This document shows positions 1,996-54,268 of a stretch of DNA of 64,000 bases, piece after piece. The stretch spans positions 19,217,534-19,281,533 of the forward strand of contig CM037874.1 of NCBI GenBank assembly GCA_021292105.1, read 5' to 3'. How positions within the stretch are numbered: the stretch's first letter is position 1; every line of letters begins with the position of its first letter. The DNA is from Anadara kagoshimensis (Eukaryota; Mollusca; Bivalvia; Arcoida; Arcidae). The position numbers and the translations under genes are program-made. The notes under the pieces were generated by a model that saw only the letters and a list, made by a program, of their open reading frames with translations, did not search any database and was not told the origin of the DNA.

Positions 1996-4066
1996 GACAT
2001 GGACTTCCAGTTAAGGAGGGAAATCACCAAATGGAATATATCTCATACATATAGTTTCTACAAATATATATTGTAGTTTACAGTGTCTTTATAAATTATT
2101 CTTTACCAATATCCAAAATTACAATTGTTTCCTATGATACCGATTATTTCAGTTTATTTTTTTTAAATCGATATAAGCAAGAAATCTGTGATCTACTTCT
2201 TACATGATTGACCCAACTTCTAATTTCAACCATTTACGGTAAATATCAAAACTAAACTCAGTAAAAATAAAATAATAAAGTCAGTAAACAGAAATTAGAT
2301 GTGTGAAAGACTGAAAATCAAAATCAGTACTTGCTAAATGGGTAATCATACTTAACTTGCATACACAATTTTAAGTGATTGTGTTTTGTAGTTGCTGAGA
2401 AACCTGTTAGGATATTTGCGACGGACGACGGTAAACCATTTCACCCCGCTCTTCTTTGAAGCGGGTATTTAATAAAGTCATTAGATAAGAACATCGAACA
2501 AAAGTTCTTAATGTATGAATGTTCAAATTTTCACGCATGACCAATTCAAGATCCTTATTCACTCGTAAACAATGCATCGCTCGAATAAGTCTCGTGCAAC
2601 ATGTTCGTTACTAGGCAGTGTCGACTTTGTATATAAAGCTGCACAAATGCACGATGAAATAAATGGACCAAATGTGGGCTTGACCCTTATCACACAATAC
2701 TTTAAACGTGGTGTACAGTTGCCAAATCTTTTTGTGTACAGGTTGATTGTTAGAGTGCCAAGGATATGAAACGCCTAGGGTTATCAGATCAATTAAATAT
2801 TGCAATTATTTTGACCCTTCGAGAAACGTGAATATTAACCGCAGTCGAATAAAAGTTAGTTTACAACTACGTAATTTGTCAATTTCAAAATTTTTACTTT
2901 TTATATGGTAATTGGTTGAAATGTTTGTTTTTCAAAAGAAAATGTAAATCTATGACTTGGTATAAAATTATTATTTATATCATTATTGTCATGGGAACCA
3001 GCTACAATTGAAGTCATATGACAGACGTGGTGACTTCATTTCTTCCTATTCTCAACTTCGTTTTCTAGGCAGCAATATTTTCACTTCTTCTGTAAATGGT
3101 GTATTTGTTGCATATCGAAAATTCTGTGGTAAAGTTTGTTTACACGATGGGATCTCTATTCAAATAAAATGTTAACAAATACATGTAAATTGTTGACTGA
3201 GGAAATTGTTAGTCTGGGGTTATTTAGGTCATTAATTATTTTCTGGCTGCTATCACAATATTGATTATAAGTATGAAAATTATCCTTAAAACATTGACGC
3301 TCATAGGTCCATGATTCTTTCATTCGTAAGTTTGATTTCACATGTGGTGTGTTACCTAGTTGAAAAAGAGATCCTTACCCGTTCTGAATTCTTAAGCATT
3401 CGACCTCGCTTCTTTCGTAGAAAAATTACGTGTTTAACTTACTTTGCCATTTTTTACAATTTATATTTTGCATTGAAAATCATTTTGATTTGGATATGGT
3501 GTTATGATTGTTTTTTATTAGTTATATGAAATACCATGTGCCATACATAATACTAGTACTGCATACGATTATCTTCAATTTGCATTATTTTGACGACGTA
3601 ATACATTGACTACGGAAATAAATTTAGATGCATATTTCTATTATTAGGAAATATATGTCATAAACTGATAGTATAGATGTGCAAATTCAAGGAATCGCAA
3701 TCAATATAATTTTGGTAAGTACCAAAAAATCAAAAGTATAAAAAGATAAAAGTTACAAAAACATATTACATTGTACAAACATAACATAATTAATATACAA
3801 AATCACCGGTTCCTTTTTGTACATATATTTCTGCCTGTAATTAACTGTACAAATCTCATCTTTAAATCAACCATAATATGTTTTGACGATTTTACAAAAT
3901 GATAATATAAAGTACAAAATGAAGTATAGATTACAATATTACATAGAGCATCCAAAACAGAAATATAAATATAATTGATATTTATCCGTTAGGTATCATT
4001 TAAGCTCGAGTTATGTGTTATTTTTATGTCATTAAATGAATAAAATAGTTTTTCGTCAAGGATTTG
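1..4066. other. gene-poor AT-rich DNA downstream of the lectin/EGF gene
   Basis: No exon, RNA gene or coding transposon could be supported here. The short open frames are rich in Phe, Tyr, Ile and Asn and look like chance frames in AT-rich DNA. Landmarks are a run of about 31 A at 1964-1994, which could be the tail of a retroposed sequence, and a small perfect hairpin at about 2443-2467 (stem CCCGCT/AGCGGG) followed by AATAAAG. Some of the part next to 4067 is probably the 3' untranslated region of the minus-strand gene that stops there. Confidence 0.5.
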
Positions 4067-16672: not shown

Positions 16673-17862
16673 ATGCAAAGTTTACATATTTGTAAAAAGA
16701 AGGACCTTCTGTCTGAGCAAAAAAATGAAAGAGAAAGCTTACTGAAGAGATGTGAAGCTATAGAGGATATAGTTAAGAAACTGACCTTGGAACTTGGTAC
16801 CACCAAACAGTCGGTGAAGGACATCAAGGTGACGACCGCCAGACAACATTTAAACACACTGAAGAGATGTAAAGATGTAGAGGATACAGTTTAAACACTG
16901 ACCAAGACACTCAGCACCACCAAACGGTCCGTAAAGCACCTCGGAGAGACAACTACCCAACAACATTCAAACACACAGAAACAAATCAATGGTATTGTCG
17001 TAACCATTAGAGATCTCAGCGTTCGTACAAAACAACATTCAAGTCGGCTTACCAAGATCCAGAGTGACATAAAGGCCACCAATAACACAGGAGGTATGTT
17101 TTGTTTATTATTCAGTGATTTGGGGTTTTCAGAGTGACCAATTAAATGACAATTTCCAACTCAAATTGAGATGGTTATCAAATACACATACCGGTCCATG
17201 TTCAAATCACGCTAGGCAAATTGACAAGAACTACAGATAAAAAATAAACCATCAAAAATACATGTAGTTTGACACGTTCGGTGTGGCTAGCTAGACAGGT
17301 GATGCTTACCCTTCCAGATCACCTGGTCTCGCATTCCTGTTGGAAGTAAACGCGTTTAACTTAATTCGCCAGTTTTCAATTTTTATTTGATTTTGAGACT
17401 GTGATTCGAATCGGTATTATGTTCAATTTGAGAGTCCCATTGTGGATTTTGAAATCTAAAATGCTTCTAATCGTCTCCAATTCTAAAAAAAATCCCCAGA
17501 AAAATGCCCCGGTATCTCTAATACAATTGTTAAACTGATCACGGATTGCTCTGTGTCATATGTCTTTTATTTGTGTAATTATCTACATCATTAGTTTTCA
17601 TATTTTTCGCTTTTATATTTCAGAAATTAGAAATGGAACTGCTTTTTCTGTTAGATTTAAAGCTGCAAACCGACCAATAGCATTCTGTTCGGATGCTATT
17701 GTAAAATTTAATAAAATAATATCAAATAACGGAAATGGGTTTAGTGTGGCAACTGGAAAATTTACATGCAAGACACCAGGACTGTACTTCTTCACTGTAA
17801 CAATTATATCAAAGACAAACCATGGAGCAGCGTGCATGAGTTATCAAACTTCAGACTTTTGA
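16673..17862 (+). pseudogene. broken coiled-coil / C1q-domain gene
   Basis: The first exon piece (16673-17093) codes a heptad-like coiled coil in which the motif TLELGTTKQSVKDIK recurs in related form three times. An in-frame TAA at 16892 breaks it, and the frame stays open on both sides. The exon ends in phase 1 at GT (17094). The second exon starts after CAG at 17624 in matching phase and codes the first half of a C1q domain (AFSVRF, then TGKFTCKTPGLYFF). A stop at 17860-17862 ends it after about 65 of the usual 130 or so residues, and the rest of the domain was not found downstream. No signal peptide was found. Coiled coil plus C1q is the common bivalve sghC1q/C1qDC layout, with products secreted and often pathogen-binding. 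This copy is almost certainly dead. The intron contains an RT-element fragment. Confidence 0.75.
17260..17430 (+). mobile_element. RT-element 3' end fragment
   Basis: It contains GGTGTGGCTAGCTAGACAGG, then GTGATGCTTACCCTTCCAGA, TGGAAGTAAACGCGTTTAAC and GACTGTGATTCG in the element's order. It lies inside the intron of the C1q pseudogene in the sense orientation. Confidence 0.7.
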
Positions 17863-19699: not shown

Positions 19700-21100
19700 T
19701 TATTATTATTAATAGCACTAATATAATATACATTATGCTATTAGTTCCTTAGAACAATTTCGAGAGTTTCAAAATGATAAAAAAATTCTCTTGTCGGATT
19801 CGAAAAATTAAAATTCTCGGAAAATACGAAATATTCGGAATTACCACTGCGCAATATATTTACCACTGCGCAATTTATACATTCAAATGACGATAATGAA
19901 CGCACTTTACCTAGAATAAACAACTTTTGTAAACTTGTATTTTTAAACCATCCCGTTCTGAAGTATCGTATATGTACCCATGACTATCGATTATGGAGTA
20001 ATTTATTCAAATAAACATTATAACAAACATGGTATAAGTTGTACACGGAAGTCGTCAATCAGCGATTATCTTGTATATTTGTTTGTGTACGTGTCTCCTC
20101 AAATTAAGACCCTAATTTAGTTCCTATGAACCTTGGTCGAATAAAATTTCAAAATATTTTCAGATTTGAAGATTAAATGCTATTAAACATACCAAATATG
20201 GGTATTATCCAATCTTTAGAACTTTGTTTTTCGTCATTCTGAAATATACACAAAACCTTATGGACACGAGTATAAAGCTTTTAAATCTTACATCTTTGTA
20301 ATGAGCATTATCAGATTTAAAATTCAACATTCAATCATTAATTTATTTACAAAATAACTTCATTAAAAATATCCAACTCTAATGAATTTTGTTTTTCTAC
20401 CCTGCGAATCCTGCAACCAGCCTGATACCAAATTATTGCTTTGGTTTTCTGTAGCACAAAGTGAATAAACACAAATACACAGCTATACATGTTAAATCAT
20501 CTACCTTAATATAAAATGATTTACAATGTAATGTATTACAATAAATCTATTTATTATAAAATGATATTTTTCATGCACTTTTGTTGGGCTAAAAGTCGTC
20601 ACGTGATCAAATCAAACAATGTAATGACCTGGTACGAGCAAGAAAAGTTGATTGAAAGATTCAGTAAGTTGCTTTATTTACTCGGGTTAATGATGCTTCA
20701 AAAAAAGGAAGAAGATTTGGAAGGACAACACATCGAAACAACAATGGCAGTAGACAGTGGAAAGTTTGTGTCATTGTCGACTACAGACGCTTCGTTCAAT
20801 TGTCAAAATATTACGATAAATTACAACATTTTTTCAAAGTGAAGTGATATTATATCCATATGTTGAAAAGTTGTTAATGTTCAATTTTTTGTGTATAAAG
20901 GATTTTTAATATGTGAAACCAAGTAGTTTTGCCCTTTCTTAAAATTGTTTACCACATTTTATAATAAAACAATTATATTACCAATTTGAGGTCAATATAT
21001 GTTTAATTGACTACGGGACAGCAAAATTGATATCCAGTGGTCAATAAAACAAATTGGTGCAATAATTGTATATCATCTAATAACATATTATACCAGTGCT
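19700..21100. other. AT-rich spacer
   Basis: Apart from the repeat at 19741-19870, nothing could be assigned. One open frame (20516-20842, +, 108 residues) has a charged, partly helical middle (WYEQEKLIERFSKLLYLLG) and no recognised domain. It may be an exon-derived or chance frame. Confidence 0.35.
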
Positions 21101-21111
21101 AATTTTTCAGC

Positions 21112-21163
21112 ACTAGATGGCCGTTTTGAAATAAAATTAAATACAATTCCTCATCAGTGGTGT
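21112..21163 (-). ncRNA. decayed hammerhead ribozyme motif (copy D)
   Basis: Read on the minus strand it has CTGATGAGGAATTGTATTT, a longer disrupted stem II, then AAAACGGCCATCTAGTGCTG. The intact motif at 36302-36349 has GAAACGGCCGTCTAG at the same place. One core base differs (GAAA became AAAA) and stem II no longer closes neatly, so it is probably inactive. The flank CACTGGTATAATATGT is shared with the 36-kb copy. Confidence 0.65.
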
Positions 21164-21959
21164 TTGGAGAAACATTGTGAAACAATATTTATTTTTTTAT
21201 TAAGTAATGTGCGACCTTATGGTTAATAATCTAAAATTGTTTCCTTTTGCTAGACTTTGTCTGAAGTGCACCCATTTGTTCTTGCTTTAGAACGCTTTTG
21301 TGTTGGTATACAATCAAGCGAGACAATTCGTTAACCGTCATTCTGATGAATCACGCCGGTAATACTGCGTCGCAATTTTCCAAAATATCTTTACCTTTAA
21401 TCTCATTAACCCTTACTTAAAACTGTCGTTTCACAATACTTCCACTGTTTCATTTATATTTTAGTGTTATAAAACATATTCAGCAATGATTCGTCGCCGC
21501 TGCAAGTTATTTTATTCATTTGGGAGCCTGAATCAACCGTGGAACTGCTACATCAACTGTACATGAACTGTAATGACAAAGTTTTTAATTAACTCTAACA
21601 GTCTCATTAACAACAACAACAACAAATAAACAAATAAATGAATAAAAATAAAGTAATAGCCTTGAATAAATATATTATTTAACAGGTAAACTTCCAGCAG
21701 AAACTAAGTCTATTTTTGCTAGCCTTTTCATCTTTCTGACAGTCTTCAGGTAGGTTTAATTTTGAAGGATTTATGTATACATATATAATGACTTTGATCG
21801 TGTTGCCTTATGATTATTGCGTAACGGTAACTTGCATTTGCTAAATAATTATTGAGAGAGATTATTGTGAGACATAATTAGTAAAACTTTTTCAAAATGA
21901 AAAAAAAAGATTGCAATAGAAATGGTCATTTTATCATTTAAAGCGTACTGCGTACTTAT

Positions 21960-27325: not shown

Positions 27326-28684
27326 CTCTTGATACAAACTATCGCAGTAAGAATTGATGCAAAAACAGCGACCAGAATTATAACAACAGCGATAAATACC
27401 GGAAGTGTGACACAAACTTCCTTGTCCTCGGAAGAGTGTTTATCTGTTAAGTAAATAATTGTAATAGTTGTTTAATTTTAAACGTTAAAAAATCAACAAA
27501 TATTCGATATTGTATTAAAAGCAAACACACAGATACCGGTCTCTATCCAATTAGCAAAAGTTAAGTGAAATTTGGAAAACAAGAAAATTAAGTTGAACAC
27601 GTTAACCTATACCAATAAAACGTGATCCAGTGGTCCGAAAGTTTATGCACCTCTTTTCTAATGAATTGTCTTTTTAGACGTCTGTTTTGAACACTGGTGC
27701 TATTATAACTACATATCAATATTACTACTTCCTCAGACACCTTTTTTGTAGGAAAAGAAATGTAATAAAGTGTTGCCTTAGGTGGATGTTTTGTAAAATA
27801 AATGTTGGTCCTTTAATTTATGTTTTCATTTCAACATTTTGAAAAAAAATATTTGAATTTCTATAACTAATTTTGGTCTGATCACTACTCATGAGGATTT
27901 TTATTTTCAAACTGTCGTCTGTCTGTTCCAAAAATAAAACAATCTTAGTAATAATATGAGTTTCATCATATATACAACATCTAAATTATTGCTAAGATAA
28001 TAGTAACTGTGTAAATGCAACCAAAAACAATAAACGACTACTGCTAAACTAACCATGTGCAATCAAACATGCCTTAATGCCGTGTTATGTAATAAATGCA
28101 AAGAAATGTAATATCCACGTTGCAGTGTAAAAATTCCTTTCATGTAATGTTATTACACCTTGTTATGTAATAAAAAAACGACAGATGCCTTACATTTAAA
28201 GGCAATCTCTATAAAGAGGCCAGTTTACATTGTACACCAGTGCAATCTTAGCCGTATTGGTCTTCATCCCTGTTATTTGTACCTATATATATAAGGACAA
28301 TCCGACTATAAAGACCACTTAAAATGGTTCTTTTGGGTTTCTGTTTACCTGTACTTGAGTTATAGTATTTTCTTTTTACTAACTCTCAATTGGTTTAAGC
28401 ATTGCCGTCTTCAAAGATGATGTTGTTTTTGTTGTTGCTAATGTCGTTTTTGTTATTGCAGTTGTTACTGTTGTTCTTGTTGTTGCTTCTGTTAATGTTG
28501 TTGATGTTGTTGTTGTACAAGGAATAGATGTTGTTTTATCTATAAGAAAAATGTTCCTTAATTTAAATTTTTATTTGTCTATTGTCATTCGTTTTTACTT
28601 ACATTTTGAACTTACGTAACATCATTTAAAACTAAACATTTTAAAACATGTATTAAACGCCGTGGTTTTTAAAAAATACTATTA

Positions 28685-31059: not shown

Positions 31060-33440
31060 CTGCATTATACTTTATATAAACCAACAACTAAATAATTATT
31101 TACCGACAGCCCGCTGTTGAGGATGGACCAATAGAAAGAACGGGAAAACCAACAAATGCTAATGAACTTATTTACAAATCTAAACTTTTAGAAACTTGCA
31201 AACGACTCTCAATAGAATCAACTATGTAACCATCCTTGATTACGTCACATTTCCTCATCCCATGCCTCTTTAGACATCGGTCATTAACCAATTTGCCGCA
31301 GTAGTAAGACCGCCTGTCTGTAACCCTTAATCAAATCTTGGCACCTACTTTAACTTCGAAACGATGCATTTCATTGTTCTTGTATAAGTTTTTTATCTTT
31401 ATAAATTCATTATTTAGCCCCCTTTGATTTGAAAATTGGCCTAAATAAAGACGATAAGATCCAGAATTGAAACCTTTCAAAGAAATATACATAATATATA
31501 TAGCATAAGGACATGCACTTGTCATACTCCTAGAAATAAGTACCTGGTTGCCTTATCTTTACTGATCAGTCTTGCTTTTTCAAATGTATTAAATCAAATA
31601 ACTGTCATTAACTTCAACATCACTGTATGTAAGTAAACTAAGTTCATCAAATCTAAAACCAACCTGAATATCCAATCGAAAAACAAAGTTAAATCCCTTA
31701 CGTTCAATAAATCATCTGAATCAAAAAAACATTTCACAAAGCTGCATCAACATATCGGTAGTCACGGAATCTTTCTGTGATCTTTCAGTCCTAGTTACAC
31801 ATTTACTGGCTACCACAGATGGTCTTCGAAGTGTCCGATGATTCATTCAACTCGTGAGCCCAATTTATAACGTAAACTACAGTGTTAAATTAACAGAATG
31901 GGTATTTTATCTTTTATCTAACAGTTGTGTTTAATAAAGTGATAGGCTAGGCACGTAATGAACAAAATCCTTGCCTAGAAATAAAAAGTTCCCACTTTTT
32001 AAAAGCATAAAAGGAAGATTTGTTCTAGTTGTCACTTTTGCTTGCCAAAAACAGTTTACACATTACACATGTAGATACAAACTATACAAACTACTGTTTT
32101 TATATACACAACTATCTAAAACTGTTTTGCTTACATGTTTATCTAGTTTCAGTCCTGTAAAAACAAACAAGGTATGTATATCAGAATTTTATACAAAAGG
32201 CAACTAAATTAATTTTTTGATTTATTTTTTTCCGAAAACACAATTTCGACTTTTGCCTATGCAAGTTAAAGCATAATTAACAACTAAAGTAAACATTTTT
32301 ATGTACAGAATATTTTAATTCTTTGTCAGATTTTGATACAAATAACCAACACGGAGTAGATTTCCACACAGGTACACCAGTGTACCCTCTGTATTGTCAA
32401 TATTTAGTCTATTGATAACATGCATACATATTTTACTATCACTGTTTGAATGAATCGACACATTAAGTGTTTTAGCACCAAAACCTAGACTTAAACTTTT
32501 TGCACTTTGTATTGTAGTTACAAGCAAATCTCTCACATGTATGAGGGCCCCATAATGAATCTAAAAAATTCATATTTGCAATTGTTAATATCCCCATCAT
32601 TACAATCAATAATTTTACTAAGTCTGCCTTTACATTGATTCTCTTGGAGTCCATTCAACCATGTCGTATATATTGATAGCAATATCATGAAGATAAGGTT
32701 TTCTACTACTCGTAACGTATTCTCATTGTAATCAAACACCCCGTTTGTTACGTATCAAATCAACGGAGTTTCTTAAACCTCTGTCGACAAATTCCCGTTC
32801 TGTTAAGGCAGAACTATTTGTACGCTCGCTAGCACACCATGTTCCGACATGACGCTGTCGTTTATGACGTCTTACGATTGTTGTCGACGTCATCGCTGTG
32901 TTGTTGTCAAATTGCACTAGTTCTTATAACCATTTACAAGAACTAGTGTAATATTTATGTATTGTACGAAAAAATGGTATTTTAGATGAAATACTTGACG
33001 GAAGTAAACGAAATTTATTTTGCTATATAATAAAAAGGTTATTAAACTGATATTAAAATATTGTCCCTCGTTGACTCGAAATGTCGAGTAAACTCGGGAC
33101 AATATTTCACAATAACCCTATAATACTTAACTTCGATTTAACAATGATTTTAGGGATTGATATCATTATAAAGTGTACAGTTGATAAAATCGTTTTACGA
33201 TTCAAATCTCATTATAAGATTAGTAAATGTAATATCCCACCTCTAATGTTTTATTAACTTGGATATATTGGAATTTATGCGAAGTCTTGTACTTTACATT
33301 GATAACGGCGTATCAATCAACCAGCAATCGCTCCGTTAGCGGTTATGTATGTTACCTTATATTATATAGTTTGTACATGTACTTGAAGTTATCATTTCAA
33401 GGCCTGAAAGGTATATCTTTGTAGGTAAATGTTATAGACT
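31060..33440. other. spacer upstream of the VWDE-like gene
   Basis: No exon or bounded repeat was recognised. All open frames are short and lack domain or splice support. The last few hundred bases before 33449 should hold the promoter and 5' untranslated region of the VWDE-like gene, but no TATA box is evident. A sequence near 31100 (TTACCGACAGCCCGCTGTTG) resembles one near 30405, so the stretch 30400-31100 may be flanked by a diverged duplication. Confidence 0.4.
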
Positions 33441-33448
33441 GCGTAAAA

Positions 33449-36400
33449 ATGAAAAAACACAAACTTTTTATAATGTGGATATATGCAATTCTCCAGTTGT
33501 TTTTTGCTGTATCGGGTAAGTGTTATCGCATTTAACTACAAACGTTAGAAAATTATTACGTTGTGCCTTTAATTAAGATATGTCATTTACAAACATTAGT
33601 TCTTTGTTTAAATGTTGAATAAAAACCAAGCTATCTTCAATACAAATTATTGATTCAGAAATGTTGCAAACCTAAGATTATCAGTACCTTCTTAAATTAC
33701 CATCATACAAATATTGTTGATAAGTATTGTATGTTGTATTCTGAATTGCATTGGATATATTTGAATCCCAAGTTTCCATGTTGATGTGAAGCTAGCTATA
33801 TAGGACGTGCTTACCCTTCAAGAACTAGGCCTCACATTGCTGGTGAAATGTCATGTGTTAAACTTAGTTTGCTTATTTCATTGTAATTAATTTTTAGGAT
33901 TGTAATTTAAAGATACGCCGATATGGTTTTGTTTGACAAATCATAGGAAATCATTTATTACTAATAAAAAAAAACATTTATTATTATTTATTTACAAAAA
34001 AACAAAACAAAACATTTCTACATTCATAATATTTTGATAACATTCCGTTGTATTTTATCATTCATTATTACCAAAAAAACATTTATTATTATTTATTATT
34101 TACAAAAGAAAAACAATTCTACATTCATAATGATATTTTGATAATATTCCGTTGTATTCTGTCATTTATTATTAACAAAAAAACAAACATTTATTATTAT
34201 TTCTTATTTACAAAAAAAAAAACATTTCTACATTCATAATGATATGTTGATAACATTCCGTTGTATATTGCTTAATTCTTAATTTAGGAAATGACTCGGA
34301 AAGATAAACTTGTCACCTAATGTTATACTTTACAAACCTTACATTTATATAATGTCTTTATTTTAAAGGGGTTGATGCTACACAAAAATTTTCTTCGCCA
34401 ACAGTAAGCGTGGATCATATCATTGAATGGAATAACGAAACAATAAATGGAATTCACATTTATGCACCAGGAATAAGATTTATGTGCAAGTTTGATAAGA
34501 CAGCTGGAAATCTTTTATACGCCATAAACTGGCATATTGATAACAATACAATTATCACTAAATCATTAACAGAAACCCCAGATGATGGACAGTCTGATCT
34601 TACAGAGAAAGATATGGGCGACATTAAATATGGAATCTATGTGAGTATATTTGTCTTTATATTATAGTGGTTGTATTTTTGTTTTGTTAAACCAGTCTTA
34701 TTACTACTGCAGTAGCTTAGATGGTGGAGTACACGCGTCATCTGTGGGAGGTCTAAGGTTTTAACCCCTACCGGGGTTGGACCAAACATTTAAAAAAATA
34801 TAGTGATTGTTCTTTTACGAGGACTCGGCTTCTAGAAATGAAAGTCACCAGTTCCTTCGGAAGAGAAGTTAAAAACCAATGCTCTGTTTCACGGCAGGCG
34901 TGGAAAGTTAGAGAGCCCTCCTTGCATATTCCCCTTAAGCGCACTGAAAAAATATAAATTTCTGAAACTTAACCTAGAGCTGTTGAAGTCTCTATAAGAG
35001 AAATATTCTTGACTGGTACGTAACATCTCATTCTACCGATCAATCTATTATTGCAAATTGTAAATAGCTCGAAGAATAGGTAAATTGACAAAATCACCAG
35101 TAAAAATTGTTTTAAATTAGTAGTTGATGTTGATACCTTGTCCGATTGATTAAACCAGTGACGTTTTATATGTTATATTAAAACAAGGAATCCTTAACTT
35201 AAAGCGTCTATGTGAATTACAAACCTTTTTCAGTAGTCAATTGCAAGGACTCTGATTGTGTTGCAATTCTAACCAGCATACATTACAAATGTGCCGTTGT
35301 CCCGGTTGATATTTATGTTAAGTACCACCCATCTCCTCTTTGCAATAGTTATGCATGGCATAATAATATCTCTTTGTTTTTCAGATTACCTGTGAAGTAA
35401 CGGCTTATAAAAATGCTACTAGTATGCCGATTAATTCAGTTAAAAGTTCGCCATTTTTTGCTGGAATCAGGGTATGTTTTCTCTTTCTTCTTATACAACC
35501 ATTAATATAACAATGTATAACTATGGTATGATTATATGTCACAGACCATTTAAAACGGTATTATTTTTTAAATCCATTCCTGCAACATTCATGACACTCG
35601 AACTTAATTTGTAATACAGCCAAAGCTCAAACGTTTTCCTATCAAAACGGCTTCCGTTATTTGAAAATATTGCAACATGTTTTTAAGTATATATAATTTT
35701 TATGAGGAAGCTTTTTCATTATGCAATTGAAAAAAGGGGTTCGAAACAGGTACTGTTACCATCTTTACACTTAGCGAGATCGCTAACTCGTGTAAGGCAA
35801 TCGCTTGGGAGGTTATTCAGTTGATTTTAATTGAAATGCTGTACATGTATTTCATATCAGTATGAAAACATCTCTAGTCGGGAGATAAATCATTTACTGA
35901 TTTGATTAATTTCTAGATACCGAATACTTTGTTAGTACAATGGAATGAATTCTATAGAACTTAGATAGTTATAAAGTATTTTTGTGACTTAAGACCTTGA
36001 TATGTACATCCATATACAGATTTTAGTTACTATGAATTGTAGATTTTCCCGAATTACAATTACATTCTGTTTCTGTATAATATTTGGTAGGCATCAACAT
36101 TTTAGTCATGTGTAGTTTTGTATTTTATAGTTTGGATAATTGTCTAAATTTCCTGCAAGTTAAAATTTGAATTTCTCAAAAACTAAGGTATACTCCCTCG
36201 TGCAAAGTATTTCCTTAGCTTAATTTGGTAAAATATAGTTTGGTCCTTTGGGTAGCTTTTCAACATCTTCAAAAATAATTTTGGTTTCATAATTTCGGTT
36301 CAAGCACTACTGATGAGGAATTGTATTCCGAAACGGCCGTCTAGGGCTGTAAAATTAAAACTGGTATAATATGTAATTGGATTATACTTTTTAGGCAAAT

Positions 36401-39400
36401 ACGACTAAAGTGTCTGTAGAACGAGGTAAACATACAATACTTGAACTTGAGTTTACGGTACCTTTCGGCTGCATTCATGATAGACATCTTGATTATTTGG
36501 ATGACTGCATCATTGCGATAGAAATGGAATACAATAACGATATGCAAGAATGTCAACAACCTGTTGGAGTTTTAGGACTAAGTCACGCATGTAGTCGAAT
36601 TGTAAAAGGTTATACGAGATTACAATACCAAAACGGTGAGACGTGGAAACCTAGGATCTACTGGAATGTATCTAACACAGACGATAAACTGTTCCCTTAC
36701 AAAGAATACTATCCAAATAGATATAAACTCCGCTTGAAAACTTTAACTGCAGAAAGCATTTATCACTTTTGGAATAATTATGATATAGCTGATATTGACG
36801 TAAGTATATAAATCATTCCCATTATTTTCTAAGACATGGTCGCTGGAGATAGGTAAATCGGAGATCATTAAACTTCCAAGTCGTCCGGCCTAAATTACAG
36901 AAATTACAACCAGTTCTAGAAGTTTTTCCTTTACATGTATTTTTAGAATTGATTTGAACATAGAAAGGTATCTTTGTTGGCTTGATTATACTTTATTAGC
37001 ACAACTGTTTTTATGACAAAAAATTTAAGTGAGACATCACTTAGCTATTGGAGTCTGATGAAAATTTATATACGTGGAAGTATATAAACAAATGATACTC
37101 TACAATTAATATGTTTGAGAGAAAAAAAAATGTTTCTTAATTTATTTAGCAAGGACCCTTATTACATTTAAGTCAAAGAAAAAGAAAATCTCGTAAATGT
37201 ACTGTTTTGGTGGCCCATCGGTTATTTAAATTCAAATATTTTGTGTTATCAAATTGTTTAGAAAACTTAATTTTTAAGGGTATTTAGTGTCTTAACTGCA
37301 TAAATATCTATATTTTTTGCATAAAGAACGATGTTCTGGTTTTTCATCAAAATAAAACATGCTTATGAATGTAATATTATTGGTTGAAATTTGTGTTATG
37401 ATCAGAATATTTTTGTACTTTCATTTTGAGTTTTTCTGCTATGTCTAGGTACTGTGTCTGTCTTTTCCATTCAGCAAGCTGTATGATCTTTCAAGACTGT
37501 ATAGCAAAATTTTTGGAACTTTGGTTTTCCCAAATTTCGGTTAAAGCACTACTAATGATGGATTTTATTCCTAAACGAACGTCTATTATTGCAAGATAAA
37601 ACTAATTTAGTAATATTAATATTAAGCTAGCTACAACACCACATATCTAATCAAAATGGAGAACGAAACGAATGTGCGACTATAAGACGTCATATATATC
37701 CAGAATTAATTGATACACAGACTTCATTTTGATGAAAAAGATCGTGTTGACGAAACTGTTTGAGGAACTTGTAAGAATAGATTGCAAAATCACAGAATCA
37801 ACAGTTAATTTGCCAGCAACTTGTTTCGTGTATTCAAATTCTTAACTGGGAACCTGTTCTACCATGGCGCATTAATTTATAAACAAATAGATCATAAATC
37901 AAGAGAAGCAACTATATTGTTGTATGTAAAGGTGATGATTAAAATAGAAACAATCATCAGATTATTTATATAACTTTAAATTACACCTGTGTTGTGCGTT
38001 AGGATTGCAATACAAATCCAAATATGATGAAGAAGAAAATGAGTCACGTTTATTATTTTAAACTACTTAGCTAAATCATTGCAAAAACATTCAGGCTTGT
38101 TATAAAAAAACTTTTCACCTATAACTGATCAAACCATATAATGTATGGCCGTATTGTTTGTGGGAAGTTTCATTGATTATTGTATTTTTTAGAAATAGAC
38201 ATTGTAAGATGACCTTATTACACATAGCCTTTGTATATTGAAGGTTGAGATAATAGATAAAAGTAGTGCATGGACTAATCCAAGATGTTATGCGCACGCC
38301 AGTGGTACACACATGAAAACTTTTGACGGCAGGTTATATAAGTACTGTAAATTGGGAAATTTTCGCTATTTTTTTTTTTTTTGTGTAAATTAGCGAGTGA
38401 AACAAGTCGCGAAAATAAAAGTTTCGCGAAAAATAAGCAGTAATTTAAATTATAACTACGCGAAAATTAAAAGACGCGAATAAATATTAAAGTACGTACA
38501 CGCGAAAATTTGATGACGCGAAACTTTCTCAATCTACAGTATCATTTTAATTTAAAAATCCCTTTGCAAAACACAGTATTTAAGCTAAGGAATTCCTGTT
38601 ATAAAATCCGTGCCATGTTCTGTTTTTGTCTTTATGTAGTTTAGTTATCAATTAACTGTAACAAACATGATTCTGCTTCGCTAAGACAAACGCTGGTTCA
38701 ACATATTCTGTTAGTTTTAATATCAATACGTTTCACACAAGACATTTTTTAAACTGAAATGAAATCAAGTACAATATAAATCCAATGTGTTATAGTGATC
38801 TAGGATTTCGAGTTAACTTTTTTGATTTGTTTGTATACTAGTTTTATACAATGTATTACATTTGTAACTAAAAAACGATAATATTTTTACATGTATTATT
38901 CAAAACAAACATATCAATACATACAAAAAACCACAATCTCTTAAAACGAAATAAAGTCCTTGAAGTTGACAAATAAGGTTAAACACGTTAAATTCATCAC
39001 TAATATCATTTTATAACAATTTGCAAGCATTATAATGTACACACAGTTTTAATCTCCATAATATTATAAATACAGTAATGCACTATCAGACTATAATGCT
39101 GTAGACATGTTCAGGTATATCATGCAACTACTGTCATATGAATAGATATTTTGTTTTTCAGTATCCATGAAGTGGAACAGTCTGGAGTTTTTACTATGTA
39201 CAAGAATAAAATTATCCCTGTTGAGGTACATGACAGCTTTACCTTTGTTTGTCTTTCTAATCAATTTAATATAAAAAAAAACTTAAAAACAAAAACTTAC
39301 CCACATCACAATTACAATCCAAAAGCAAAGAAAAATTTGAAACTTACAAATAAGGTTTAACATGTGCTCTTCCATAAGGAATGTGAGGCCAGGTGCTCCA

Positions 39401-42400: not shown

Positions 42401-45400
42401 GTGCAAGGATGATCTACCCCGACCCCGCCGCTCAATACATGATATTTACAGTTGACCAATGATAGCGACAAAGTTACGATCCTTTGGATATGAGAATATC
42501 ACAATAACCTTGTAAAATATCACAATAGATCTATTTTATTCATGCATGGCCACTATATTGCAGAAAACAAGTTCAAGAAAGGTATTTTGGTAATATATCT
42601 TTTTTCTTATTGAAGTCATAAATTAATGTCACATATCAGTATTTTTCAAATTTTTTGCCGCACCAAACTATATATATTTTAAAATTTTGAAAACAAAAGG
42701 AAAAAAGTTGTTTAAGAAACTATCATTAAAATTTTGCTATTGTTTACAATGCTTTGTGCTGGGAAGGTAGACAAGGTTTCAAACAACAACAGGACAGGTT
42801 ATAGGTAACTACCATTTTGTCATTTCATATGCAAATTAGCTTTCTTTCTTAGGTACAAAAATGTATAAAGGTCATAGATAGGTGTTTATACACTGTTAAA
42901 CACTGTGCTATTTATAGTAAAAATGCGTGCTAAAGTAGATTTATAGTGCATTGTATAAATAAAGGAATTAGTATATGGATTCACATGGAACAATTATTGT
43001 TTCCAAATATGTTTGAAATATAGGTCTACATGTTGTCATGTATATATAAAGGTCATGAACCCAATTTTAATCTGCGTTATGGGTCAGGTAATATTCAACT
43101 GTGTAAACTTCCACCCTCTACACAAATCTCCAAAGATGCATTTTAAATTAGTAATGATTATTTAAACAACTTTTTTGATTTTCTACCAAAAGTTCTGAAA
43201 TTACATGTCTTGATGTGGCAAAAAATTTCATTAAAAATGGTGTATTAGGTTTTAATATTCACTTTGAAATAAAAAAGATATTTTACCAAAATTCCTGTTT
43301 TGAACTAGTTTTCTACACTATAATATAATTAAAACAGCGACCTTCCAGGAAGATTACCGTGAGTCAAATAATAGGTTTACAATTGAAACAACCAGTTTAG
43401 ACAAACGTTCTGGAAATTGCAATTGTAAAATCAACTGTAAGTTTAAAAGTAAGGATCAGGAGATCAGGAGAGATAATCCATTTAATATATCGAACACAAA
43501 AACACGATGATACCCGCTTTTTTCTTTATTTTGTAGCATACAACTTAAAATTCCTATTATTACATAGTTTTTATCAAAACGTATGTCACAGATTTTAAAA
43601 AATTAGGATTTTTATGTGTAAAGACCAATGAAAATGGGGATACTTTTAGCACAGACCTTATTATATAAATTAAGAAAACTGGCGTTGTTTATAATATGAA
43701 CGCGCATAATCTAAAGCGGCGTGCCTTTGCGGATTATAACCAACACAATAAAAAACAAATCACTTTATCTATTTATTACCGAATCAATTACAAGCACCAA
43801 TTGCGCATTTTAATGTTTAAAATTGGAGAGTGTTCAAAACACTCTACAGGAAAAAAAAACAAAACCCAAACTTACCATTTTTGTTTTTGTTTTTTTTTTT
43901 TCAAAAAAGCACATAACCAAGGATCGTGTGACATTTTTCAGAAAAATCTATTTCGGGACAAATTGTTGCCTCAGGTACCGAAAATTGCCTTAATCTTAGT
44001 TTCTTCAAAACAATATGCATCATTGATACTAAGTCTTTCTTTTATTTTGTCTAACTAGATATATCTCCCAACAGGATCAGTAGTATACGTCTTCATGGTG
44101 TATAAGTGGAAGCTAAATGTTGATATTGACACGACCTCACTTGATGTAGGAAATGTTGAAGGTTTATGTGGGAACTTGGACGGTATTAGACGAAATGATT
44201 TTATAGTCAATGGTATCGATATGAGTCAGATAACACTATGTGGAAATGGAAATCCAGTTTTCCAGTGTAGAAACAGGTTCATTTTACACTACAAGTACGT
44301 TATTTTTAATTTTTAAAGCTTACAAGAATAGTGATTAAATAATGTAGTAAATACATGCAAGCAGGTAAAATCAAAACCAGATAGTTTACATTCTGTTATG
44401 TTTAATTTGATTTTAGATGTTGAATTTCCATGTATATGCAATTTGACTTTCTATTTATTTATTTATTAATGCATTATGGCGTATTATGTTTTAGATTGAT
44501 TTTTTCACGTGCCATTAATTACAGTTACGTCCCTTTCATAACTGGTGTCCTGTGCTTGTTTATTATTGTTTACTTTTATTTAGTACACTAAAACATCATT
44601 GATATTTGCGTTGCTGAATTAAACAAAAATGGTTTTCAAATTGTCTTATACACCGACAACCAATATGGGTCTTAATTTCCTACTTACTAAAAGAAGAGCT
44701 GATGTGCTAGGTGTCGATAATTTGTCGAACAAGTTTTTTATCATGATTTAAAGTTATGTTAATGATGAAACACAATTTAAACAGTAATATAAAATGAGTA
44801 GAACATTTAACAGTGAAGTATGACAATGAACTTAAGGAGGCCACAGAGAGAGCCATGAAAAATAATTCAACATTTTTTTTTCAAAAAATGATTCCTAAAA
44901 TGCCGAACTATCCGCCTATATGAGTATATACGCAAGAAACTGGGTTGCACCCTTTTCAGGTCTCTATACCCGTCACTACTTCGAGGCCAAGTACAAATAA
45001 ATCTCTGTGTAAATATATACGTTGCTTATGAATAACAGTTTTCTTTTTTTATATTGACGTGTGTGGAAGCTGACTTTACTGGGTAGTTAGTTGTCTATAT
45101 AATTTAAATGTTTGCTATTCTACACCAAAGTGTAGCGCTACTGTCATTGCCATTACTTTGTTGGCACAAACACAAAAAACTCAGGTGTCACAATGACTTG
45201 TTTTGTTTGCGTCATAATGCGTATAAGTTTTGTCTATTTACGGCATGTCAGTGTAATTTCATAGCAGATTACTTTGATTTAGGCCATCATTCTTGTATTA
45301 AGATGGAATCGGTGATTGAAGGCATTCAAGAAACTCAAGTTGTTAGAGCCACCCGTGCTTCAGAGACCATGCTTGGCACCTGTGGAGCATTTTTCAGACA

Positions 45401-49375: not shown

Positions 49376-50077
49376 TTACCTGTCTGAAAGACCAGTACGG
49401 AGTTTTGTCAGCAGAACGCCTGCACCTTGGCGGATTGTGCGATTTTTTGATTTCTTCATAGAAATGGCAAAAGAACAAACATCATCAAATTGGTTCTTGT
49501 TCAACCCAGTTGCATTGTATATATCATCACTGGTCATATCTGTATCGAAATCAATCTTGTTCTTTTGCATTACAATGTTCTTTAGCCCATTCAGTAGCTC
49601 TGTCACTTCATTGGTTGTTGCAATAGCTTTGTCGCTGGTACACATAGCATTTTGTGCAATAACACTTGGTTTCAATTTCATCCCTGAGAGGTGAGATTTA
49701 CAACACAAAAGACCCAAAGGTACAATTACACCATTGGATATAAAAACTTGTAGTCTTGCATCAGATGGTATTTTTGTAAGACCTTTTCCCATATGATGAC
49801 AAAAGACACAATGAGCTCTACTTTTAGCTACACTTTTAAATGACAGTACTATAGCATTTGAATTGCTTTTTGAAGACTGTTTCTTTGAACTGGGTTTCTT
49901 AACGTTTGTGTTTTTGTCATAATACAACTTTTTACATTTAAGGCATATTAATTTATCCACATTAATTGTCATACATAGTGTTTTAGAAAAAAATTCGGCA
50001 ATCAAACTATTAATTTTTCTACCTTGGCCTGTCTTAAGCCGTGCTGAACACACGCCACAAATTGCGGAATTGGGCAT
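49376..50077 (-). CDS. N-terminal part of an ISL2EU/Harbinger-like transposase
   Basis: An open frame of 233 residues starts at ATG 50077. Residues 8-48 hold two Cys pairs (CGVC, CLKC), and a second set follows with CVFCHH near 90 and CC/H near 125. The last 35 residues (NKNQFDDVCSFAISMKKSKN, then GAGVLLTKLRTGLSD) match the helix-turn-helix that precedes the DDE_Tnp_4 nuclease in this transposase group. The frame runs into a donor (CAG/GTAATA at about 49382), so the true exon ends there and the few codons after it are intron. No catalytic exon follows within the element, so it cannot move itself. A similar fusion in a host gene is less likely given the flanking inverted repeats. Confidence 0.7.
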   Translation of the reverse strand: MPNSAICGVCSARLKTGQGRKINSLIAEFFSKTLCMTINVDKLICLKCKKLYYDKNTNVKKPSSKKQSSKSNSNAIVLSFKSVAKSRAHCVFCHHMGKGLTKIPSDARLQVFISNGVIVPLGLLCCKSHLSGMKLKPSVIAQNAMCTSDKAIATTNEVTELLNGLKNIVMQKNKIDFDTDMTSDDIYNATGLNKNQFDDVCSFAISMKKSKNRTIRQGAGVLLTKLRTGLSDR

Positions 50078-50402
50078 TTCTATTATTGTAAAAGCAATGC
50101 AAAATGTTACCGCCCGTATAAAATCATCAAAATATAATCAAATATTAACATAATGACTATAATTTCTTTTCATTTGGCATGTTCAAGTGTTCAAGGCGCT
50201 GCACTGTTAGTGACATCGAAGTTCCGCACTCAATAAAACACGGGTGATAAACATTGGTAATGAGTTTTCGTTTTATTTCAGTTATAACCCGGAAAATCGA
50301 TTAAAAATATATATTTAAAAATTCAGATGCTTTTAATTAGTGTAACAATTGTGATGAAAATATATTAATGCTTAAAACTCCATAACTAAAACGAAAAAAA
50401 TA

Positions 50403-52306: not shown

Positions 52307-52740
52307 AAGGGTGTTTGTAATAAACTTAGATGTTCTTACTTGCATTCTTGCATTAAATGCACCATGACCCATCCTCAACTTAGATGTAGGGTAGTGAAAG
52401 CTAGCAATATTAATTTTAGGTCTGGAAATCAACAACAGTAATGGTCCTCTCGTGTGGCAGCTGCAGCTACTAGCAATGGTAAACTTGACAGCACAAATGT
52501 CAGTAAACCAGCACATTCAGCTAAACAGCCTCGCCAATAGTCCAATTAAAGTTAATTCATTACAAAGTTTTTTGAAGTTATATCCAAATTTAGATGATGC
52601 TGAATTACTACATAATGGTTTTAACCATGGTTTAAAGTTGAATTATCATGGTCCTCGTCAAAGGACTATTTGTTCTAATTTATCTTCTCTAAAAAATCGT
52701 GAATTAGAAGCTATAAAGATAGTTATGAAAGAGGTTAATT

Positions 52741-54268
52741 TTGTTTCGTGTTGCTGGCCCATTTTTATTTAATCCTTTGCCAAGTTTAAGGCTTTCTCCA
52801 ATCGGTTTAGTTCCAAAGAAAGATGGTTCGTGGCGGCTAATACATCACTTATCATACCCTAAGGGGTCAAGTGTAAATGATTTCATAGATCAAAATTTAT
52901 GTTCAGTCAATTATACATCTTTTGACACCGCTTTATTGATGTTAGCAAAAGTAGGCAAAGGTGCATTAGCGGCCAGGCTTGATATAAAAAGTGCATTCAG
53001 GTTACTTCCGATTCACCCGTCCGATTTTGAACTTTTAGGTTTTAAAGTTGCCAATTATTATTTCACTGACAAATGTTTACCATTTGGGTGCTCTATATCG
53101 TGCTCACTGTTTGAACAATTTTCTACTTTTTTAGAGTGGCTTTTTAAACATAGGTCACAAATCAAAAACAAACATACTTATCCATTTCCGAATCACAATC
53201 CAGAAGCAAAGTAAAAACTTTGGAACTGACAAGTTAGGTTAGACACGTGAACTTCCACCAGGGAAGTGAGGCCGGGTGCTCCGGAAGGGTAAGCACCTCC
53301 TGCTTAGCTAGCTACACCCGTCACGTGTGTAATCAAAATTGTGTGAAAGGAACATGGAACTATGAGACGTCAAATATATCCAAGGCAATCCTGGACACAG
53401 AGACATCAAACTTATCAACAATACTGTGATGACGGCCATAAAACTTTTTGAGGGCCTTGATAAGCCTAGGCTTGCAATATCCCTGAGTCAACAATTTATT
53501 TGCAAGCAGCCTACTTCGTTGTACAAAGTCCCCGTAGTGGGAACAAGCTCTACCAAAGCGTATTAATTGGGAAACAAATACACCATAAGCAGGAGAAGCA
53601 GGTATATTGCTGCATAAAAAAGGGAAGTTGACAATAGAAAAATTGAAGTCATCACGTTTGTCATAAAGTTTCAAATGTAGCCTTTCTTGTGCGTCATAAT
53701 TCAGGTATAAGTCTAAATATGAAGCAGAACTTGAGGAATCAGTCGTGTCTTTTATTTCAAGCTCACTAGGATAGATGACATTTACATAGTCTCCAAATTT
53801 AGGATTGTTAAGAGTGATAAAATAGTACATTACTTAGATGATTTTTTATTAGCTGGCAGGGAAAATAGTGATGAATGTAAAAGCTTAATGGAATGTTTTT
53901 CAGATATATGTAATGAAGTGGGAGTACCATTAGCTCATGATAAAACCATTGGTCCATCTCCTATGTTAGTTTTCCTAGGTCTTGAAATCAACACAATAGA
54001 AATGAATGTCAAAATCCCTTCCGAAAAGCTTATTACACTTAAATATTCATTATTTTGTCTTTTGGGCAAAAAGAAAACAACTTTGAAAGACCTTCAGTCT
54101 GTTGTTGGCTTACTTAATTTTTGTACCAGGGCCATTCCACCAGCACGTGCGTTCAACAGACGTTTTTACGACGCTATATTTACATTTTGTCTGTTTTCTG
54201 TCTTCTACACAAGGTTTCAGAGCAATTGCGTTCATATCGGCCATGAACTGCAAGATCTACCTTGGTGA
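52741..54268 (+). pseudogene. reverse-transcriptase region of the tyrosine-recombinase retroelement
   Basis: Typical DIRS-type RT blocks are seen: SPIGLVPKKDGSWRLIHHLS, LDIKSAFRLLPIHP and CLPFGCSISCSLFEQFSTFL. After the RT-element insertion (53178-53827) come a YLDDFLLAG palm motif and LVFLGLEINT. The insertion falls between the fingers/palm part and the YLDD motif. Not intact. Confidence 0.75.
53178..53827 (-). mobile_element. RT-element copy, youngest-looking, inserted in the retroelement
   Basis: On the minus strand the coding tail (53830 to 53360, 156 residues in one frame) reads LNNPKFGDYVNVIYPSELEI, ASYLDLYLNYDAQERLHLKL, YDKRDDFNFSIVNFPFLCSN, IPASPAYGVFVSQLIRFGRA and KKFYGRHHSIVDKFDVSVSR. 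It starts just downstream of the YIDD position, so the copy is 5'-truncated. The 3' untranslated part ends near TTCCGAATCACAATCCAG at 53190. The uninterrupted frame makes this the least decayed copy in the window. The protein type is abundant in bivalve genomes. LINE or Penelope-like status is unsettled. Confidence 0.85.

Follow-up and report, generated by a model that had tools for sequence, protein, structure and literature searches.

The window, the whole 64,000-nucleotide stretch of Anadara kagoshimensis DNA that was analysed, carries a plus-strand gene with a hammerhead ribozyme motif in its third intron. The motif occupies the sense strand 45 bp upstream of exon 4, and the open frame that runs through exons 1–4 bears out the original prediction, which had placed it in intron 3, in sense and ahead of exon 4. 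The gene and the motif comprise:

33449–33515, 34369–34640 and 35385–35471, plus strand: exons 1, 2 and 3, forming one open frame when joined with exon 4
36395–36799, plus strand: exon 4 of the VWDE-like gene, in open frame with exons 1–3; the repeat element described below stops 16 nt short of its acceptor
36302–36349, plus strand: type I hammerhead motif with a palindromic stem III, read from the sequence
36303–36309 and 36342–36348, plus strand: the two strands of stem I, with six of seven pairs and the mismatch A36306/G36345
36310–36316, plus strand: CTGATGA core box, read in the sequence
36310–36341, plus strand: exact 32-nt core common to 3061 places in the genome by pattern count

The name 'VWDE-like', which the original prediction gave to this gene, is weakly favoured by two Pfam matches, both sub-threshold: Ig_VWDE (E = 0.062; 13.7 bits, cut-off 28.1) and VWD at 44059–44313 (E = 6.6e-4; 20.5 bits, cut-off 22.9). 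An exon 5 first placed at 39162 was dropped as out of frame, and a VWD-like frame spotted by eye at 38208–38330 has no Pfam match. Intron 1 holds three A+T-rich direct repeats at a spacing of ~101–109 bp (33967–34266), and a CGCGAAAATT-type motif is repeated in intron DNA at 38445–38522. Other features of the window are an inverted repeat whose 24-nt arms are 88% complementary and enclose a 4-nt loop (33056–33107), a C1q domain frame (17539–17859, plus strand; E = 4.1e-13), a 253-amino-acid open frame with no Pfam match at E ≤ 0.1 (49376–50137, minus strand) and a reverse transcriptase frame belonging to a separate retroelement (52729–53211, plus strand; RVT_1, E = 2.2e-8). The C1q domain and the repeat types would fit a bivalve host.

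The conserved core and stems I, II and III of the hammerhead are all present in type I order, with the one mismatch in stem I. Stem II is a 5-bp helix, GGAAT/ATTCC, with a TGT loop, and is followed by GAA. Stem III is the palindrome ACGGCCGT, which can form either a loopless 4+4 arrangement or a 2-bp stem capped by a GGCC tetraloop. The predicted cut falls after C36341, 53 nt from the exon 4 acceptor. A descriptor scan of both strands of the whole window returned this hammerhead as its single match, and 2411 windows simulated from a first-order Markov model gave 11 looser matches and none equal to it. Stripped of its stems, a looser pattern matched 10 times against 11.1 expected, showing no excess over chance; the significance of the hammerhead therefore comes from pairing. 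With all elements in place, the type I hammerhead of the original prediction is confirmed as genuine and was correctly read.

The covariance-model check suggested alongside that prediction gave a divided answer. With an 81-base query, RF00163 (Hammerhead_1) aligned over its full length, model positions 1–45 of 45 covering 36304–36347 (E = 0.0018), yet its score of 21.6 bits is below the gathering score of 34. An Rfam search of all 64 kb yielded nothing reaching the gathering score, and a search with an 801-bp query at E ≤ 10 did not find the hammerhead. The 60-nt stretch is unremarkable in free energy (z = −1.30) and has a minimum-energy fold other than the hammerhead. A chance resemblance to a hammerhead would accord with the sub-gathering score and with the chance-level count of the loose pattern, but it is barely conceivable in the light of the simulated windows, of the thousands of identical cores in the genome and of the double hammerhead predicted for their dimer.

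The window hammerhead is part of a repeat element scattered in thousands of copies through the host genome. Pattern counts across the genome from which the window comes (36 contigs, 1.115 Gb in total), with the reversed pattern as control, gave 16926 places for a loose hammerhead pattern against 4655 for the control. The exact 32-nt core occurs at 3061 places and a 44-nt form with intact stem I at 2081, against 0 for the reversed pattern in both cases. One tandem array (L043, C1:310271–311966) consists of 5.0 ORF-less units with a period of 339, 98% alike, and further arrays of the element lie at L092, L101 and L102. A single L043 unit is low in G+C (33.6%); folded as a circle, it is 63% paired, and 19 of 100 shuffles fold equally well (z = −0.93). 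A coding role for the short frame opened by a start codon inside the hammerhead of this unit was rejected on reading the tails, as the more frequent tail lacks one A and thereby ends the frame.

Copies were compared in a sample of 60 loci, all on contig C1 and most of them taken from the earliest entries in the list of exact-core places, so that the sample is not random, and several duplicated pairs are included. Copies in this sample are mostly lone and 5′-truncated, and most end alike, 37–38 nt beyond the hammerhead cut. When the window is added, the sample gives 65 element chains, of which 50 reach their end at unit position 337–339, five at 334 and ten elsewhere; the 5′ starts of the chains are scattered over unit positions 1–302. 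Agreement among the 56 non-tandem tails is 41/56 at position 37 past the cut, 29/56 at 38 and 24/56 at 39. The combination of a fixed 3′ end and scattered 5′ ends fits reverse transcription from one inner site that often stops early. Exact flanking repeats of at least 7 nt were present at the boundaries of only 2 of the 65 chains, including an evident duplication of 28 nt at L050.

Pattern searches of other sequence collections produced matches that we rejected. A flank-plus-core pattern matched viral contigs once (L001), by chance, in a G+C-rich coding stretch. A 19-base minimal-hammerhead pattern matched 1 viral and 32 prokaryotic contigs, and stems I and II both reach at least 3 bp in none of these 33, which are thus not homologues. 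A sigma-70 scan was irrelevant.

The copy of the element in the window, and its relatives there, are:

36136–36378, plus strand: 5′-truncated monomer of 243 bp (unit 97–339) of the ~339-bp non-LTR retrozyme-type element, from identity to L043 and L055
36342–36378, plus strand: 37-nt tail from the cut site to the element 3′ end, from tail column agreement and chain ends
36345, plus strand: G in the window copy, where the remaining 66 of 67 distinct tails in the sample show T; with G, pairing with A36306 is lost and a rival hairpin gains strength
37517–37612, plus strand: old, decayed relative in intron 4, 75% identical to the window copy across 97 columns, with a mutated hammerhead core
21071–21196, minus strand: old relative, 75% over 126 columns, with a 10-nt insertion interrupting the stem II side
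27829–27940, plus strand: old, decayed relative with a CTCATGA core, 70% over 112 columns

The window copy is 93.9% identical to the L043 array unit over 245 columns and 96.3% identical to the dispersed copy L055; a clear target-site duplication was not found at its boundaries. We consider it very likely that the hammerhead at 36302–36349 arrived with this insertion, a 243-bp, 5′-truncated copy of a non-autonomous element of non-LTR retrozyme type with a ~339-bp unit. Non-LTR retrozymes are known from mussel, coral and salamander, and the best reading of the window copy is that it is an ordinary insertion of one.

The anatomy of the family suggests how such an insertion could arise: tandem copies would be transcribed into multimeric or circular RNA, a borrowed reverse transcriptase would copy this RNA starting at a fixed inner site, and early stops would leave 5′-truncated inserts. 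A linear RNA starting at the cut would give only a ~37-nt stub, so copies crossing the cut must derive from multimers left uncut or from circles formed by re-joining. The window copy would have inserted 16 bp upstream of the exon 4 acceptor and would leave with the intron at splicing. Given this short distance, the branch point of intron 3 may fall inside the element, if that acceptor is used.

In the window copy, the stem III palindrome forms a predicted rival hairpin with the 3′ side of stem I, aided by G36345. The hammerhead fold of this copy (−4.1 kcal/mol) lies 9 kcal/mol above the minimum (−13.1 kcal/mol), compared with 4.5 kcal/mol in the common form (−8.9 versus −13.4 kcal/mol). In two-strand folding, the common form gives a double hammerhead and the window copy does not. 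The predicted probability of stem I in the window copy is 0.000 with flanks of 20, 60 and 120 nt; the means for 70 other exact-core copies are 0.818, 0.614 and 0.460, with values above 0.2 in 61/70, 52/70 and 41/70, respectively. These folding energies ignore tertiary contacts, which leaves room for weak or slow activity. Being lone and mismatched in stem I, the window copy is probably inactive or slow in cleavage.

The original prediction held that the palindromic stem III suits activity as a dimer, as in newt satellite hammerheads. The comparison is apt, the motif being the same kind of repeat, but the transcript provides no intact tandem partner. The only sense neighbour within the transcript is the relative in intron 4, the core of which reads CTAATGA and CTAAA instead of CTGATGA and CGAAA; this mutated core makes a dimer in cis unlikely.

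These observations also bear on whether the ribozyme was recruited by the gene, with sense cleavage upstream of exon 4 competing with splicing and tuning mRNA output. Its sense orientation, the short distance from cut to acceptor and the intact exact core would suit such a role, for which amniote intron hammerheads, for example in RECK, provide a precedent in the part of PMC6155905 available to us. We nevertheless regard recruitment as highly improbable: the window's core is one of 3061 in the genome, stem I carries a private break and faces a rival hairpin, a dimer partner is lacking, and identity to other copies is high along the whole insertion, beyond the ribozyme alone. The splicing-tuning or small-RNA role that the original prediction had offered for this copy finds no support, as the core sits inside a recognisable retroelement copy with a private stem I mutation, a predicted non-hammerhead fold and no intact tandem partner. 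For gene control, this ordinary retrozyme-type insertion looks too damaged and too isolated. An eye-catching intronic ribozyme has thus been traced to a repeat family, and the gene role assumed for it is stripped away.

The host genome also contains Penelope-like elements. GIY-YIG ends gave at least 50 matches with 150 of 248 candidates scored, and RVT_1 and GIY-YIG share one open frame at L121. Two Penelope-like families, A and B, carry other type I hammerheads, again with a palindromic stem III, directly past the frame; the family A ribozyme has 50 exact occurrences in the genome. Of the family A tails, 32 are distinct: 21 of these depart from the shared sequence ~39–42 nt past the cut, and 11 do so at ~72–75 nt. 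In family B, 3 of 7 tails leave at ~40–46 nt and 4 run on, and a third type (L108, L110) appears by eye to be alike for ~64 nt past the cut. The tails of family A (L106–L153) have two alternative 3′ ends, mostly followed by TA runs. These two ends, ~33 nt apart, resemble an Anolis element with an optional 30–40 bp tail and two start sites, as described in the available part of PMC11167929. Exact family A hammerheads are often found as inverted pairs a short distance apart, the minus copy first and the plus copy second (C5:20181774/20181863, C13:9835606/9835714, C14:27124107/27124199 and others), which suggests inverted double insertions.

The window copy could in principle be a fragment of such an autonomous Penelope-like element, namely its repeated end with a minimal hammerhead and tail, and not a separate non-autonomous element. 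In this genome, the hammerheads of Penelope-like elements are likewise of type I with a palindromic stem III, and the elements stop at set distances beyond the cut; the part of PMC11167929 seen here describes elements in which tandem repeats and a hammerhead are combined with a fixed tail. However, the hammerheads beside GIY-YIG ends are unlike the window's in sequence, the window unit forms ORF-less arrays, and none of 30 GIY-YIG loci (from the at least 50 matches; ~1.5 kb on each side) showed the unit at the end of such an element, which makes this origin unlikely. Matches to the unit occur in 3 of these 30 loci: a degraded and inverted one at L121, one of 29 nt at L118 and, at L107, a truncated copy that lies 1.16 kb upstream and stops at the usual 3′ position.

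Read as a separate non-autonomous element, the window family still shares one property with the autonomous Penelope-like elements: their ribozyme sequences are unrelated, and both end ~37–44 nt past their own cut (in many copies of the Penelope-like elements). It is possible, though rather doubtful, that a Penelope-type reverse transcriptase copies the retrozymes of the Anadara kagoshimensis genome, with the ribozyme region placing the start of reverse transcription. Against shared machinery, TA-run insertion is a preference of family A (20 of 21 short-tail copies) and not of the window family (2 of 56 tails), which shows one 3′ end and not two. Penelope-like elements are named as a strong candidate for mobilising retrozymes in the available text of PMC7229834; a shared distance from cut to 3′ end, if genome-wide, would be direct evidence on that proposal, and Penelope-type copying, if true, would identify the agent that mobilises animal retrozymes, so far an open question. 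The 3061 exact cores offer a large natural set for testing how these elements are copied. Our literature search did not find this shared distance reported, which is no proof of its absence.

Several known systems resemble the window element, each as described in the accessible portions of the sources cited. Amniote intronic hammerheads are likewise sense, intronic and thought to be retroelement-derived (PMC6155905), but they are conserved between species, whereas the window copy is degraded and known from one species. Newt and axolotl satellite hammerheads have a weak helix III and work better as a dimer (PMC7229834), features that the window motif shares; unlike them, the window copy stands without an intact partner in tandem. 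The minimal hammerheads of Penelope-like and Terminon elements match the window family in being type I, with a very short or loopless stem III, a tandem arrangement and a fixed tail (PMC7761336, PMC6155905, PMC11167929), and differ in that the window element has no RT/EN frame of its own.

Metazoan non-LTR retrozymes carry a type I hammerhead in tandem repeats of ~150–450 bp, from dimers up, with low G+C and thousands of copies, according to the sections of Cervera and de la Pena 2020 (PMC7229834) available to us. The same sections report ~5000 copies in Mytilus, in ~350–390 bp repeats and without most of the nucleotides of the loop 1–loop 2 contact, and RNA circles in mussel, coral and axolotl. 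Unlike the retrozymes so described, the Anadara copies are mostly lone and 5′-truncated with one 3′ end 37–38 nt past the cut (in the sample), stem III is palindromic, folding as a circle is unremarkable, and the element is known here from DNA alone. It is like them in its type I hammerhead, 339-bp tandem units, G+C of 33.6% and thousands of copies; the tandem repeats are found at the level of the family, of which the window copy is a lone, truncated monomer.
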